Both the position numbers and the translations under genes were made by a program. Positions 44,914 to 50,912 of a stretch of 64,000 nt of DNA are shown here, one piece after another. Under the pieces are notes generated by a model, which was not told the DNA's origin, searched no databases, and saw nothing but the letters and a program-made list of their open reading frames with translations. The DNA is taken from NCBI RefSeq assembly GCF_018326425.1, contig NZ_AP024601.1, positions 2,716,001 to 2,780,000 on the forward strand. The letters are read 5' to 3'. Origin of the DNA: Polycladomyces abyssicola (GTDB lineage: Bacteria > Bacillota > Bacilli > Thermoactinomycetales > JIR-001). Numbering within the stretch: position 1 is the stretch's first letter; each line of letters starts with the position of its first letter.

Positions 44914-45657
44914 TTAATGTTTCAGAATTCTGCTTAAAAACTGCCGGGTCCGTTCTTCTTTTGGATTGTTGAAAAACGTCTCCGGCTCGGATTCTTCCAA
45001 AATCCGTCCTTCATCCATAAAGATCACCCGATCCGCCACTTCCCGTGCGAACCCCATCTCGTGGGTCACAACCACCATGGTCATGCCTTCTTTGGCCAGC
45101 GTTCGCATCACATCCAACACTTCGCCGATCATTTCGGGATCGAGTGCGGAAGTTGGCTCGTCAAACAACATGATTTTCGGTTTCATCGCCAATCCTCTGG
45201 CGATCGCGACGCGTTGCTGCTGACCGCCCGACAATTGGGAGGGATAGGCGTTGGCCTTCTCTGGGATTCCCACTTTTTGCAGGTAAAATTCTGCAATTTT
45301 TCGCGCTTCCTCTTCCGGCACTTTTTTTACTTTCATCGGGGCGAGCATGATGTTTTCCAACACCGTTTTGTGGGGATACAGATGAAAGTGCTGGAAAACC
45401 ATGCCGATCTCTTGTCGCGCTTTGTTCAGGTTGGTTTTGGGGTCGTTCATTTTTACCCCGTCCACAATCACTTCGCCCTCAGAAACCGTTTCCAACTGAT
45501 TGATACAGCGGAGCAAGGTGCTTTTGCCCGATCCGCTGGGTCCAAGAATCACGACCACTTCGCCCGCTTGGATCGTCAAGTTGATATCTTTTAGGACATG
45601 AAAATCTCCGAACCATTTGTTGACCTGGCGGAACTGAATGATCGTACATCCCTCCAT
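44914..45657 (-). CDS. glnQ: Amino-acid ABC transporter ATP-binding protein (GlnQ-like)
   Basis: About 247 residues. Walker [14 protein letters not shown]-loop [14 protein letters not shown], signature [16 protein letters not shown], Walker [16 protein letters not shown]-loop VVTHEMGFA. The start is uncertain: the first ATG (45657) overlaps the GGAGGG that should be its ribosome-binding site, and relatives begin at the ATC-ATT-CAG codons 12-18 bases later, so a non-ATG start is possible. First gene of the importer operon, with promoter at 45717-45746. Confidence 0.93.
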
Positions 45658-45716
45658 TGCAGACAATTTTGAAATCAATATGAGGAATGAGGAAGAAAAA
45701 CACTTTCCGTAAGGTG

Positions 45717-45746
45717 AATATACCCATTCCTCCCTCCCAATGTCAA
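45717..45746 (-). promoter_or_regulatory. Sigma-A promoter of the gln operon
   Basis: On the minus strand TTGACA (45746-45741), 18-base spacer, TATATT (45722-45717). It lies about 60 bases before glnQ. Confidence 0.7.
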
Positions 45747-45859
45747 GGAATCAATCGGATTCTTCTGTTTTATCGGAAAGAAATGAGGGTAAACGAGCGA
45801 GTTTTGGTTATGTTACCAAATGTACCCATGATCGTCCAACAAATCGATCATCATTAAGG

Positions 45860-46025
45860 TATAATCAGATTGGCACCTGCACATGTAATCATGATACGGG
45901 ATATTTTCCCCAGCTGAGCGACTTGAAACAATCCGAGGTGCAGAGTGGCCTATAGCGTTGCTGGGCGAAATGGAAAACGGTACAATCGAACAATCTCGTA
46001 TGAGACCTTAGAAGGAGTCCGCACA
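45860..46025 (+). promoter_or_regulatory. Promoter element and structured leader of the antiporter gene
   Basis: TATAAT at 45860-45865 (no clear -35) would give a leader of about 155 bases before the ATG at 46026. The leader starts with CACCTGCAC (45874-45882), which can pair with GTGCAGAGTG (45938-45947), and has a GGGA/TCCC arm inside. A regulatory RNA is possible, not shown. Confidence 0.35.
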
Positions 46026-47264
46026 ATGGAATCCAAAGTAATGGAAATCGCACAAACCGAAATGTTTATGTTTTCCATGGTCTTTCTGCTCGGGCTGATC
46101 GCCACCCGACTGGCGGAATGGATCCGCATCCCCGACGTTGCATTATTCTTGATACTTGGCATGCTCGTCGGTCCGGCCGGTTTGAACTGGATCGTACAGC
46201 CCGGCAACTCTGTGGCTTATCAGTTCATCATTTTGATCGGGTCCACGTTGATCCTGTTTGAAGGAGGACGAGCGATTCAATTTACCGTATTAAAGCGCGT
46301 ATGGATCACGGTGACCCTGTTATCCGTTCCTGGCGTGCTCATCACTGCCGCCATCGTGACAGCAACGGCGGTCGTCATATTGAAATTGCCGGTTTTGTAT
46401 GCCGCCTTGTTGGCAGCGGTGATCGCGTCGACCGATCCGGCGACATTGATCCCCGTCTTCCGCCAAGTGGCGGTGGAACCCCGGGTACGTCAAACCGTCG
46501 AATCAGAATCCGCTTTCAACGATGCCACCGGCTCGATTCTCACCTTCACTATTCTAGGACTGATCCTCGGCGAAACCCGTTTTTCCGCCATTGATACCAT
46601 CTGGAGTTTCGTTCGCGAGGCCGGTGGCGGATTGATCGTCGGCATCCTGGTTGGCTGGCTGGGTTTGTTGGTCACATCCGAGCATCGAATGGGCGTATTT
46701 CGCCGGTATGGTACAGTCGTCAGCCTGCTGGTGGCGATCGGTTCCTACCTGGCGGCAGGCTCGATACACGCCAGTGGTTTCATGGCCACTTTTGCCGCGG
46801 GCGTTGTTTTCGGCAACCCGGATCAGTTCCGGTTGCGCATCCCGGAGAACACCGTTTCGGAAATCGTCTTATTCGGAGACACTGTCACATTGCTGTTACG
46901 CAAACTGATCTTCGTTCTGCTCGGGACACAAGTCAATTTCGACGTATTGTCCCAATACTGGTGGCAAGGCATACTGGTCGTTCTTGTGTTGATGTTTGTC
47001 GCACGTCCATTTACCGTGCTGGCATGCGCCCTGCCCGACCGGATCGCTCGCTGGCGATGGCGGGAGGTATTGTTTTTCTTTTGGGTGAGGGAAACCGGCG
47101 TAATCCCCGCCGCCTTGTCCGGTATGATCGTCGGTGCCGGTGTCGCGCATGCCGATGTGATCGCGGCAGTCACGTTTATCGCCATCCTGTTGACCATCGT
47201 GCTCCAGGCGAGCACCACCGGCGTGGTCGCCCGTTGGCTCGGTGTGGATGTAGCCAAAGAATGA
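46026..47264 (+). CDS. Cation:proton antiporter, CPA1/NhaP-like
   Basis: 412 residues, about 12 membrane segments. IASTDPATLIPVFRQ and ESAFNDATGSI carry the paired acidic residues typical of NhaP/CPA1 exchangers; WVRETGVIPAALSGM follows later. Probably exports Na+ (or another cation) against H+. The ATG at 46026 has AAGGAG nine bases upstream. The DUF5819 gene begins 63 bases after it on the same strand. Confidence 0.88.
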   Translation: MESKVMEIAQTEMFMFSMVFLLGLIATRLAEWIRIPDVALFLILGMLVGPAGLNWIVQPGNSVAYQFIILIGSTLILFEGGRAIQFTVLKRVWITVTLLSVPGVLITAAIVTATAVVILKLPVLYAALLAAVIASTDPATLIPVFRQVAVEPRVRQTVESESAFNDATGSILTFTILGLILGETRFSAIDTIWSFVREAGGGLIVGILVGWLGLLVTSEHRMGVFRRYGTVVSLLVAIGSYLAAGSIHASGFMATFAAGVVFGNPDQFRLRIPENTVSEIVLFGDTVTLLLRKLIFVLLGTQVNFDVLSQYWWQGILVVLVLMFVARPFTVLACALPDRIARWRWREVLFFFWVRETGVIPAALSGMIVGAGVAHADVIAAVTFIAILLTIVLQASTTGVVARWLGVDVAKE

Positions 47265-47327
47265 ACGGCTTTTGTTTCCCAAGTATGATAGGATAATAGC
47301 TGAACCTTCCCGGACGAGGTGAGGTCC

Positions 47328-47942
47328 GTGAATTGGAAAACCGCCGTATTGGGCACTTGGATCATTGGCCTGGCGTGCTTGTTGGGCTTTCACTTCGGCA
47401 TGACCGCTTTGTACCTGGCACCACCCAACCCGGTCAAGCAAGCATGGTTTGAGCCTATGATGAAATATATGGACCCTTTGTTCATGCAGAACTGGAAATT
47501 ATTTGCTCCCAATCCCGTTTCCCAACACCAGAATATCTTCGTCAAGGCCAAGTGGAAGGATCCGGAGACGGGCCAAATCAAGGAAACCCCTTGGCGTGAT
47601 GTTTCCCAGCCCCTGATCACCCACATACAACGGGACCGCTTTTCCAACGACGGACGTTTGTACCGGTTTCAATACACCGCCATCACCTGGTTCACCGACA
47701 AAGACCGGAACCGCAAGGCCAAGGGTGAACAGATGCTGGAGCGGGTGGCCGCCAACGCAATCCGCGACTTTCCGCACCGGCCCCACGTACTGCAAGTGAA
47801 AGTGCGCATCGTCACCAACGTATTTCCGCGGTTTTACGAACGGTACAAGCCTGATCGCAAGGGTACGTTTTACTACCGCGAAACAAATTGGATGAACGTT
47901 CGTCCCATCGATTCGGGAACGACGGGAGGGAGCTTCCGATGA
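47328..47942 (+). CDS. DUF5819-family (SdpA-like) membrane-anchored protein
   Basis: 204 residues. One N-terminal membrane segment (VLGTWIIGLACLLGFHFGMT), then a soluble outer part with WKLFAPNPVSQHQNIFVKAK, a signature of DUF5819. The protein resembles SdpA-type partners of HTTM proteins in sequence layout. The GTG at 47328 follows GAGGTGAGG. It overlaps the HTTM gene by four bases (ATGA). Role unknown; the coupling implies the two proteins act together. Confidence 0.75.
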   Translation: MNWKTAVLGTWIIGLACLLGFHFGMTALYLAPPNPVKQAWFEPMMKYMDPLFMQNWKLFAPNPVSQHQNIFVKAKWKDPETGQIKETPWRDVSQPLITHIQRDRFSNDGRLYRFQYTAITWFTDKDRNRKAKGEQMLERVAANAIRDFPHRPHVLQVKVRIVTNVFPRFYERYKPDRKGTFYYRETNWMNVRPIDSGTTGGSFR

Positions 47943-49339
47943 CCACCCGGATCTTCCGCTTTCTCACCAAGGAACATATGTTGATCGGAGCCAGTCTGGT
48001 ACGGATCGCCGTCGCTGCGGCCATTCTTTTTTACTTACTCTCCAACTATACCGATCGCCATTTGTTGTGGGGCACTCACGGCATTTGGCCATACGACGAC
48101 TTTTTGCGGTATCTTCGGGAGCGTCACACCTTTTCGCTCTACCAACTCAGTGCGGATCGCATCTATTTCGAATGGGTGTACCACGCGACCATTTTGGTCG
48201 CATTGGCCTACCTGATCGGTTACCGGACACGGGTCACCGGCGTGCTGCTCGCGGTGCTGTATTGGTCCCTGTTCATCCGCAACCCTTTTATCACCAACGG
48301 TGGGGACAACGTTCTCCGATTGGACCTGTTTTACCTCATGTTCGCCAACACCGGTGCCTGGTTCTCGTGGGATGCCCGCCGTCGTCGGAGGCAGCCGGAT
48401 CAAACGGCCGCCTCGCTCCCTCGCCAGATGCTGGCGGTTCTTCACAACGCAGCAGTACTGGCCATCATGATTCAAGTGTCAATGGTTTATTTTACTTCGG
48501 GTATGTATAAAGTGATGGGCAGCATGTGGCAACACGGGACAGCCATCTACTATGCCACGCGGGTCAACGAGTTTTACTGGCCCGGTTACAGTGAGTGGAT
48601 CTGGAAATATGATATCGTGGTGGTCTTGTTAAGCTATGCCACCGTGTTTTTTCAGGTCGGATTTCCGTTTTTGCTGCTCAATCGTTACACCAAATACGCG
48701 GCTGTCTGTTTCGCCGTCTTCATGCATATCGGGATCGCTCTGTTCATGGGGTTGATCGAATTTTCGTGGGTGATGATCGGAAGTGAAATGATATTGCTGA
48801 CCGACCGCGACTACCGGCGGATCGGCTTAGCCATCACATGGGTGGGAGATCAAATGAGGATAGGATGGGAGAAATTGACCCAGTGGATTGGAGAGAGGAA
48901 CTGGGCGCAACGTCACCGTGTCATCGTGTTTTATGACGGATGGTGCCCGTTTTGCAGGCAAAGTGTGGAGACGGCTCGCAAACTGGACTGGTTCTCCCTG
49001 CTGACGTTTGTCTCTTTCCGTGAGCCGGGCGTCATCGAACGATACGGATTGTCGGCGGAAAAAGTGGAGAAACGCTTGCACAGTACCGTGGACGGCCGAC
49101 ATTTTCGTGACGGGATTGACGGCATCATCCAGATGTCCTCCCGCCTGCCGCTTCTGTGGCCCTTGGTTCCACTGATGTGGATCGCACGCCGGATCGGGAT
49201 GGGCCAAAAAGTGTACGATTTCATTGCCAGCCGCCGGACGGTGATTCCTGCGGGTGGTTGCGATGATGCATGTCCTGTCAACCCGGCAGAAAAAGAGACT
49301 GCATCCACCAGCGAAGAAGAAAACCCCGGCAAGGCATAA
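47939..49339 (+). CDS. HTTM-domain membrane protein fused to a DUF393 thiol-oxidoreductase-like domain
   Basis: 466 residues. Residues about 10-300 form an HTTM domain (horizontally transferred transmembrane domain, shared with vitamin-K-dependent carboxylase and SdpB) with RIYFEWVYHATILVALAYL, NPFITNGGDNVLRLDLFYL and FTSGMYKVMGSMWQHGTAIY. Residues about 325-450 are DUF393: VIVFYDGWCPFCRQSVETAR with a CPFC active-site pair, and a C-terminal GGCDDACPV. The fusion of the two is the notable point. Translationally coupled to the DUF5819 gene. A terminator follows directly. Confidence 0.85.
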   Translation: MTTRIFRFLTKEHMLIGASLVRIAVAAAILFYLLSNYTDRHLLWGTHGIWPYDDFLRYLRERHTFSLYQLSADRIYFEWVYHATILVALAYLIGYRTRVTGVLLAVLYWSLFIRNPFITNGGDNVLRLDLFYLMFANTGAWFSWDARRRRRQPDQTAASLPRQMLAVLHNAAVLAIMIQVSMVYFTSGMYKVMGSMWQHGTAIYYATRVNEFYWPGYSEWIWKYDIVVVLLSYATVFFQVGFPFLLLNRYTKYAAVCFAVFMHIGIALFMGLIEFSWVMIGSEMILLTDRDYRRIGLAITWVGDQMRIGWEKLTQWIGERNWAQRHRVIVFYDGWCPFCRQSVETARKLDWFSLLTFVSFREPGVIERYGLSAEKVEKRLHSTVDGRHFRDGIDGIIQMSSRLPLLWPLVPLMWIARRIGMGQKVYDFIASRRTVIPAGGCDDACPVNPAEKETASTSEEENPGKA

Positions 49340-49357
49340 ACCTGCCGGGGTTTTGCT
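49321..49357. terminator. Bidirectional terminator between HTTM gene and rocA
   Basis: AACCCCGGCA (49321-49330) pairs with TGCCGGGGTT (49342-49351), with TTTT after it on the plus strand and TTTTC after it on the minus strand. It covers the HTTM stop codon. Confidence 0.85.
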
Positions 49358-49364
49358 TGTGACT

Positions 49365-50912
49365 TCAGAACAACTCGGAAACCACTTTGGCTTGGGTGAA
49401 CAAGAGCAGGTAATCGCGTCCGCCTGCTTTGGAGTCGGTACCGGACATGTTGAAGCCACCGAACGGATGCACACCCACCAAAGCACCGGTACATTTACGG
49501 TTGAAGTACAGGTTGCCGACATGGAACTCTTCACGTGCTTTTTCCAGATTGGCGCGGTTTCTGGAAATAACGGCACCGGTCAAACCGTACTCGGTGTTGT
49601 TGGCAATTTCCAGCGCATGATCAAAGTCTTTCGCCTTGATGAACGCCACTACCGGACCGAAGATCTCTTCTTGGGCGATCCGGGCGTTCGGGTCCACATC
49701 GGCGAAGATCGTCGGCTGGATGAAGTACCCGTTTCCTTCGGCTTTTCCGCCACCGATCACCAAACGGCCTTCCTGTTTTCCGATCTCAATATATTCCAGG
49801 ATTTTCTTGTAGGCGTTTTCGTCGATCACCGGACCCATATCGATGCCGAATTCACGCGCTTCAGCCACTTTGAGGTTTTTTACTCTCTCGGTTACTTTGG
49901 CCAGCACTTCGTCGTAGACGTCTTGATGGACAATTGCCCGGGAGCAAGCAGAACATTTTTGACCGGAGAAACCAAACGCCGAAGTGACAATCGCTTGAGC
50001 AGCCAGATCCAGGTCAGCCTCTTTGTCCACAATGATGGAATCTTTTCCGCCCATCTCCGCGATGACGCGTTTGATCCATTTTTGCCCTTTGGCCCGTTTG
50101 GCAGCCAGCTCGTTGATGCGCAGCCCCACGTCACGGGAACCCGTGAAGGAGATGAACCGTGCCAACGGATGTTTCACCAAGTACTCACCCACGACCGGTC
50201 CGGAACCGGGCACGAAGTTGACAACGCCCGCCGGCAGACCGGCTTCCTCCAGGATTTCCATGAACTTGGCGGCGATCACCGTCGTCGGCCCGGCCGGTTT
50301 CAGCACCACGGTGTTACCCGCGACGATCGCGGAAGTGGTCATGCCAACCATGATGGCCAACGGGAAGTTCCACGGCGGGATGATGATCCCCACACCCAGC
50401 GGAATGTAGGTGAGCTCGTTGTCTTCTCCCGGAATGCGGGTCAACGGTTGCCGTTCGCTCAGACGAATCATTTCACGACCGTAGAACTCCATAAAGTCAA
50501 TCGCTTCGGCGGTGTCGGCATCGGCTTCCGGCCAGGATTTGCCAGCTTCGAACACCATCCAAGCGGAGAACTCATGTTTTTTCCGGCGCAGAATGGACGC
50601 CGCTTTGAACAAAATCCGGGCACGTGCTTCAGGAGAAACTTTTTTCCAGGTTTCGAAGGTTTTCGCGGCCACTTGGATGGCTTTTTCCGCGTGCTCTTCC
50701 GTGCCTTTGGACGTATAACCGACTACCTGATCCAAGTTGGACGGGTTGATGGAGTGGTACTTCTCTTCGGTTTTGATCCGCTCTCCGCCGATGATCAAGT
50801 CATATTCGCGACCCAGTTCGGATTCCACTTTGGCCAGTGCTTCTTCAAACGCGCGTCGGTTTTCTTCTTTGGAGAAATCGGTGAAGGGTTCATTTCGAAA
50901 TTCGACTACCAA
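49365..50912 (-). CDS. rocA: 1-pyrroline-5-carboxylate dehydrogenase
   Basis: 515 residues of the aldehyde dehydrogenase superfamily: [37 protein letters not shown], catalytic Glu in [14 protein letters not shown] and nucleophilic Cys in [14 protein letters not shown]. Oxidises glutamate semialdehyde to glutamate. Length and motifs fit RocA/PutC of bacilli. TTG start with GGAGG eight bases upstream. Divergent from putB. Confidence 0.95.

Follow-up and report, generated by a model that had tools for sequence, protein, structure and literature searches.

A DUF5819 and HTTM-DCC1 gene pair of Polycladomyces abyssicola, probably related to SdpAB, and the precursor-linked cassettes of its relatives

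What is the task of a two-gene unit in Polycladomyces abyssicola that sets a DUF5819 protein beside an HTTM membrane protein with a fused thiol-redox domain? The unit occupies 47328-49339 on the + strand of the stretch analysed here (64,000 nucleotides of NZ_AP024601.1, hereafter the window). To our knowledge, no chemistry has been established for SdpB or for most bacterial HTTM proteins. The reading we prefer, to which we give a probability of about 60%, is that of a membrane module of SdpAB type that handles a secreted substrate and has a cytoplasmic DCC1 thiol relay. It draws on homology, gene order, tail conservation, clade structure and purifying selection. The window pair itself most likely acts in the maturation or export of a secreted protein whose gene lies elsewhere, and the DCC1 thiols would be its intracellular redox partner. 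The features of the locus are as follows.

47328..47942, + strand: DUF5819 protein, 204 aa (PF19136; hhalign to SdpA; structure model with pLDDT 77)
47939..49339, + strand: HTTM-DCC1 fusion protein, 466 aa (PF05090, PF04134, TIGR04033 match, 10-sequence alignment)
47939..48898, + strand: HTTM (SdpB/GGCX-like) membrane domain, residues ~1-320 (GGCX profile alignment, residue comparison)
48899..49336, + strand: DCC1-like (DUF393) thiol-redox domain, predicted cytoplasmic (PF04134, alignment, hydropathy and charge)
47939..47942, + strand: ATGA start/stop overlap of the DUF5819 and HTTM-DCC1 genes (sequence)
49323..49358, + strand: GC-rich inverted repeat, then a T-run, CCCCGGCAAGG..CCTGCCGGGGTTTT (sequence, by eye)

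The DUF5819 gene starts with GTG at 47328, preceded by GAGGTGAGG, and stops at 47940-47942; an additional in-frame GTG lies upstream, at 47319. The HTTM-DCC1 gene starts with the ATG at 47939, which confirms the ATGA overlap given in the initial annotation. Both genes are single-copy in the 3.2 Mb genome. Upstream, a gene of the Na+/H+-antiporter family runs in the same direction and ends at 47264. The downstream neighbour is on the opposite strand and is 1-pyrroline-5-carboxylate dehydrogenase-like by sequence. The inverted repeat directly 3' of the operon is terminator-like by eye and is absent from the list of the consensus terminator scan. No small secreted ORF of the SdpC precursor type was found in the 47264-47328 gap or directly after 49339, and the neighbouring ORFs, read by eye, agree with the earlier remark that the pair has no evident toxin or immunity gene beside it. 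An Rfam scan of 45500-49700 gave no family match, and a search for viral or phage relatives found none. In a literature search, DUF5819 and DUF393 were not found as whole words, nor were HTTM domain and DCC1-like found together.

In terms of domains, the first protein matches PF19136 at 104 bits (E 1.7e-29, residues 34-191 of 204). It has a single N-terminal transmembrane helix and an extracytoplasmic domain, with a P-N-P ... QNWKLFAPNP motif. The second protein contains HTTM (PF05090, 41.4 bits, residues 76-286) and, at residues 330-435, a DUF393 domain that belongs to the DCC1-like family by its PF04134 score of 62.3 bits and its CxxC. The identification of a DUF5819 and HTTM-DUF393 pair is thus upheld, as is the presence of CPFC (336-339) and GGCDDAC (439-445) in the C-terminal part.

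The pair was also proposed to be SdpAB-like, and the comparison of profiles bears this out. The HTTM domain aligns with SdpB from annotated SdpABC loci at P 3e-24 over 271 columns, and DUF5819 aligns with the N-terminal third of SdpA at P 5e-6 over 64 columns. The block common to DUF5819 and SdpA consists of the membrane helix, P.NP, and QNWxLFAPxP versus PQGWGFFSKSP. On account of these values, the pair looks like SdpAB and probably works like it, and the two are probably related by descent. The pair is outside the curated SdpA and SdpB families: the match to the SdpB model TIGR04033 reaches 71.2 bits at residues 73-288, below the cut-off of 178.4, and the SdpA model TIGR04034 has no match in the genome.

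SdpA and SdpB are both required for the processing of SdpC to SDP (PMC6818787). With SdpABC of B. subtilis and its paralogue YitPOM, the locus shares an SdpA-like and SdpB/HTTM pair in one operon and, in relatives, a secreted precursor with a hydrophobic segment. It differs by DUF5819 in place of SdpA, by the fused DCC1 and by the lack of a precursor in the window copy; furthermore, the relatives' precursors are unrelated to SdpC (no NCBIfam match) and have their own type of tail. Judged by sequence, the window pair is a variant of the SDP-type system that is itself new. DUF5819 would be the SdpA counterpart, anchored in the membrane and binding the substrate outside the cytoplasm. HTTM would be the SdpB counterpart, a membrane enzyme of GGCX fold with a (mena)quinone pocket that performs or drives maturation or export.

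The survey of gene neighbourhoods called for by the initial annotation further supports the SdpAB likeness. Many DUF5819-HTTM pairs of relatives are directly preceded by a gene whose small product carries a signal peptide. In a maximum-likelihood tree of 54 HTTM domains, 22 rows have such a precursor directly upstream, from Thermoactinomycetales relatives, Paenibacillus and other members of the class, Virgibacillus, Macrococcus and Streptomyces. The precursors have about 90-146 amino acids. Behind the signal peptide comes a variable, often Ala/Gly-rich middle part, and they end in a common C-terminus such as ...EAFDQ, ...VVFDN, ...TVFDK, ...VIFDR or ...VIFNK. This tail, F[D/N] with a basic or amide residue, is present in 22/25 precursors collected; the remaining three, of which two share a locus, have FGR or FAR at the end. 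An alignment of 16 precursors shows an invariant Pro, part of an 'EP' motif, and an invariant tail Phe.

The tail motif was first noticed in loci L006-L010, and 12 loci gathered later formed the test set. In ten of these, F[DN] falls among the last four residues, compared with a background of 4/606 ordinary ORFs (0.66%); as some of these loci are closely related, a binomial value overstates their independence. The arrangement of precursor and pair is also found on plasmids of Virgibacillus and Streptomyces, and on a Macrococcus plasmid with the tail FAR. The cassette often has a third gene, which encodes a transglutaminase-core protein (L008, L009, L113) or a beta-lactamase-fold serine hydrolase (L042, L114, L116, L121). 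Some actinobacterial plasmid pairs adjoin large secreted proteins rather than small peptides.

Pfam and NCBIfam searches found no family that covers the precursors. By sequence and gene order, the FD-tailed secreted peptides, which come with an SdpAB-like, redox-fused maturation pair, form a previously unnamed family, a finding that is wider than the window. The cassette points to a widespread peptide family without a name in the libraries searched. These peptides are putatively antimicrobial. In the related cassettes the substrate would be the Sec-secreted precursor, with xFD[K/N/Q/R] at its C-terminus as the likely recognition signal.

A different picture is seen for the window copy. Its HTTM domain falls in a clade of 22 rows (clade A, support 100/99), none of which has a linked precursor; the 22 precursor-linked rows are all outside it. 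The sub-clades of clade A match the host families f1, f142, f143 and f146, as vertical descent would lead one to expect. Against two congeners, every part of the operon has a dN/dS in the range 0.09-0.17, which indicates purifying selection.

The search for a precursor in the P. abyssicola genome combined a tail pattern and a profile, and covered a subset of small ORFs. The tail pattern gave 31 matches, with no ORF combining tail and signal peptide. The best profile match had E 0.3 and covered the signal-peptide part only; known precursors are found by the same profile at E 1e-13 or better, and the divergent L010 precursor at 1e-3. The window therefore has the DUF5819 and HTTM pair of the FD-tail cassette and no upstream precursor with an F[DN]x tail. 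Taken together, the lack of precursors in clade A, the host-family pattern and the purifying selection make the window pair a conserved orphan. The function proposed for it is carried over from a sister group. Its substrate would be encoded elsewhere or be of another kind. Such an orphan clade in Thermoactinomycetales would be a case of a peptide module turned into a fixed cellular function.

Next, the fused redox domain. DCC1 is fused to HTTM in 26 proteins collected, and its fused state changes nine times on the 54-row tree. Where it is not fused, the pair has in many instances a stand-alone DCC1 gene as neighbour; at 12 such loci the stretch read showed none. The domain shares PF04134, CxxC and a C-terminal Cys with DCC1-like (DUF393) thiol-disulfide oxidoreductases, and differs from them by the fusion to HTTM and by an extra C-terminal Cys that creates a second pair. 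The cysteines of CPFC and of this second pair (C441/C445) are all invariant in a 10-sequence alignment. Every fused DCC1 has a second pair near its end; a single C-terminal Cys is the rule among the stand-alone neighbours checked, with Niallia as the one exception. Only two plasmid matches of the window DCC1 domain were found, the Virgibacillus cassette and a Niallia plasmid (L083, NZ_CP137637.1 25099-31539) where a DCC1 gene heads a DCC1-SdpA-SdpB-SdpC run, which ties this DCC1 subtype to SDP-type systems. In a sample of 398 genomes, 3/5 matches of the subtype stand alone, without an HTTM neighbour.

The structure model of the HTTM-DCC1 protein is poor (pLDDT 59), so its topology rests on hydropathy and charge. 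The positive-inside rule puts the N-terminus on the cytoplasmic side and the loops with GGDN and K191 on the outer side; DCC1, which follows a basic linker, is predicted to lie in the cytoplasm. The eighth membrane helix (~272-290) is missing from the simple scan of the window protein and was placed by means of the GGCX alignment. In the cytoplasm, the fused DCC1 would act as a two-pair thiol relay for the HTTM enzyme or its quinone, and not in peptide oxidation.

The HTTM-DCC1 alignment profile matches human GGCX at E 3e-6. In GGCX, K218 is the active base, W223, F299 and H160 line the vitamin K pocket, and H160 also holds the Glu side chain (PMC12589487). The window protein has equivalents of K218 (K191), W223 (W197), F299 (F275) and H287 (H263). 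W197, F275 and H263 are identical in 54/54 tree rows, SdpB included. H160 is replaced: G122 is aligned with it, and D123 is next. Since the pocket residues are kept and H160 is not, the comparison makes a quinone pocket in the HTTM domain plausible and classical Glu carboxylation not likely. The K191 position is K in all 22 clade-A rows, in 5/6 SdpB rows and in 4/4 actinobacterial rows. It is Q in 13 of the 22 precursor-linked rows, so some members of the family may do without the base. In addition to the H160 position, the window protein differs from GGCX by its fused DCC1 and by the absence of a fused propeptide-binding domain. A fold comparison of the DUF5819 model gave no significant match; against GGCX 401-490 it reached Z 3.4, tied with unrelated folds and not above noise. 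The fused redox domain, the conserved quinone-pocket residues and the common precursor tail make HTTM chemistry directly testable.

What else could the pair do? The initial annotation saw in it a built-in disulfide-forming step, with DCC1 making the disulfide of a secreted Cys-containing peptide as in SDP. SDP does contain a disulfide, the CPFC and second Cys pairs are invariant in the fused proteins, and a DCC1 gene is at the head of one real SdpABC operon. Against this, 0/25 precursors have two cysteines after the signal peptide (4/25 have one), for which reason peptide disulfide formation is unlikely; the predicted cytoplasmic place of DCC1 and the lack of signal peptides in the stand-alone DCC1 proteins of related cassettes point the same way. 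This part of the annotation is not supported, and we regard it as very improbable. A bolder chemistry, which we hold doubtful, is that HTTM uses reduced quinone and the K218 equivalent to modify the acidic precursor tail, with DUF5819 as a detached propeptide-binding part and DCC1 replacing VKOR. If true, secreted bacterial peptides would undergo a menaquinol-driven modification like that of vitamin K carboxylase, and the cytoplasmic DCC1 thiol relay would feed electrons to the quinone in place of VKOR.

The orphan clade leaves room for two further readings. It could be a general envelope-protein maturation factor, similar to GGCX or lipase maturation factor 1 (LMF1), for larger secreted proteins such as an SGNH/GDSL esterase. 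LMF1 is a membrane protein for the folding of a secreted enzyme, and the HTTM domain of one relative has a weak Pfam match to it. The vertical inheritance of clade A fits this role, as do the actinobacterial pairs that adjoin ice-binding or wall-anchored-like proteins and the SGNH/GDSL esterase gene that is divergently upstream of the pair and conserved in one host family. However, the LMF1 match is below the cut-off and the window genome has no conserved lipase partner. The esterase was rejected as substrate: it is missing from the window genome, and hence not a required partner, and also from other clade-A genomes, and no other conserved neighbour was seen. We consider this role possible, though on the unlikely side. 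Alternatively, the clade-A pair may be what is left of a peptide cassette after loss of the precursor, retained by chance or because it confers immunity. In favour of this, no precursor was found in the window genome, and versions of the cassette are patchy, with decay in some cases (L118). A remnant is at odds with a clade that as a whole follows host families and is subject to purifying selection, and in which all members have K191 and W197 and the fused ones a CPFC-type CxxC. This makes it quite improbable. Our preferred reading remains the SdpAB-type module with a DCC1 relay. Several points count against it: the lack of linked precursors in clade A and of a precursor match in the window genome, Q at the K191 position of many precursor-linked rows, the actinobacterial pairs beside large secreted proteins, the poor HTTM-DCC1 model, and distant DCC1 proteins of the subtype that have no HTTM linked to them.

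Other observations were made at the loci of relatives. Three actinobacterial plasmids (L079, L080, L081) have DUF5819-HTTM directly after an ice-binding-family gene or a large gene whose product has a wall-anchor-like C-terminus. The pair of a plasmid labelled Bacillus subtilis (L078, CP123774.1) groups with a Curtobacterium pair, and by this placement the record may be actinobacterial DNA. The DUF5819 gene is apparently broken in L118 (genome G802) and L119 (G529); at L118 there is also a short precursor, with no HTTM gene recognised beside it. In L129 (G426), a precursor-like ORF with a signal peptide occurs in a genome without any DUF5819 gene. The Niallia run is preceded by a DUF3784 membrane protein.

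Conserved leader DNA lies 5' of the Paenibacillus precursor gene (L008:4640-4780 and its L006/L007 equivalents); for the L008 leader, Rfam gave nothing above chance. The Virgibacillus cassette is followed by genes for a small membrane protein and an HTH regulator (L041:5276-5778) in an SdpI/SdpR-like layout, by analogy a possible immunity pair. Lastly, at L009:3188-4579 four paralogous FD-tail precursors stand in tandem; their signal peptides and tails are nearly identical, and their cores differ.
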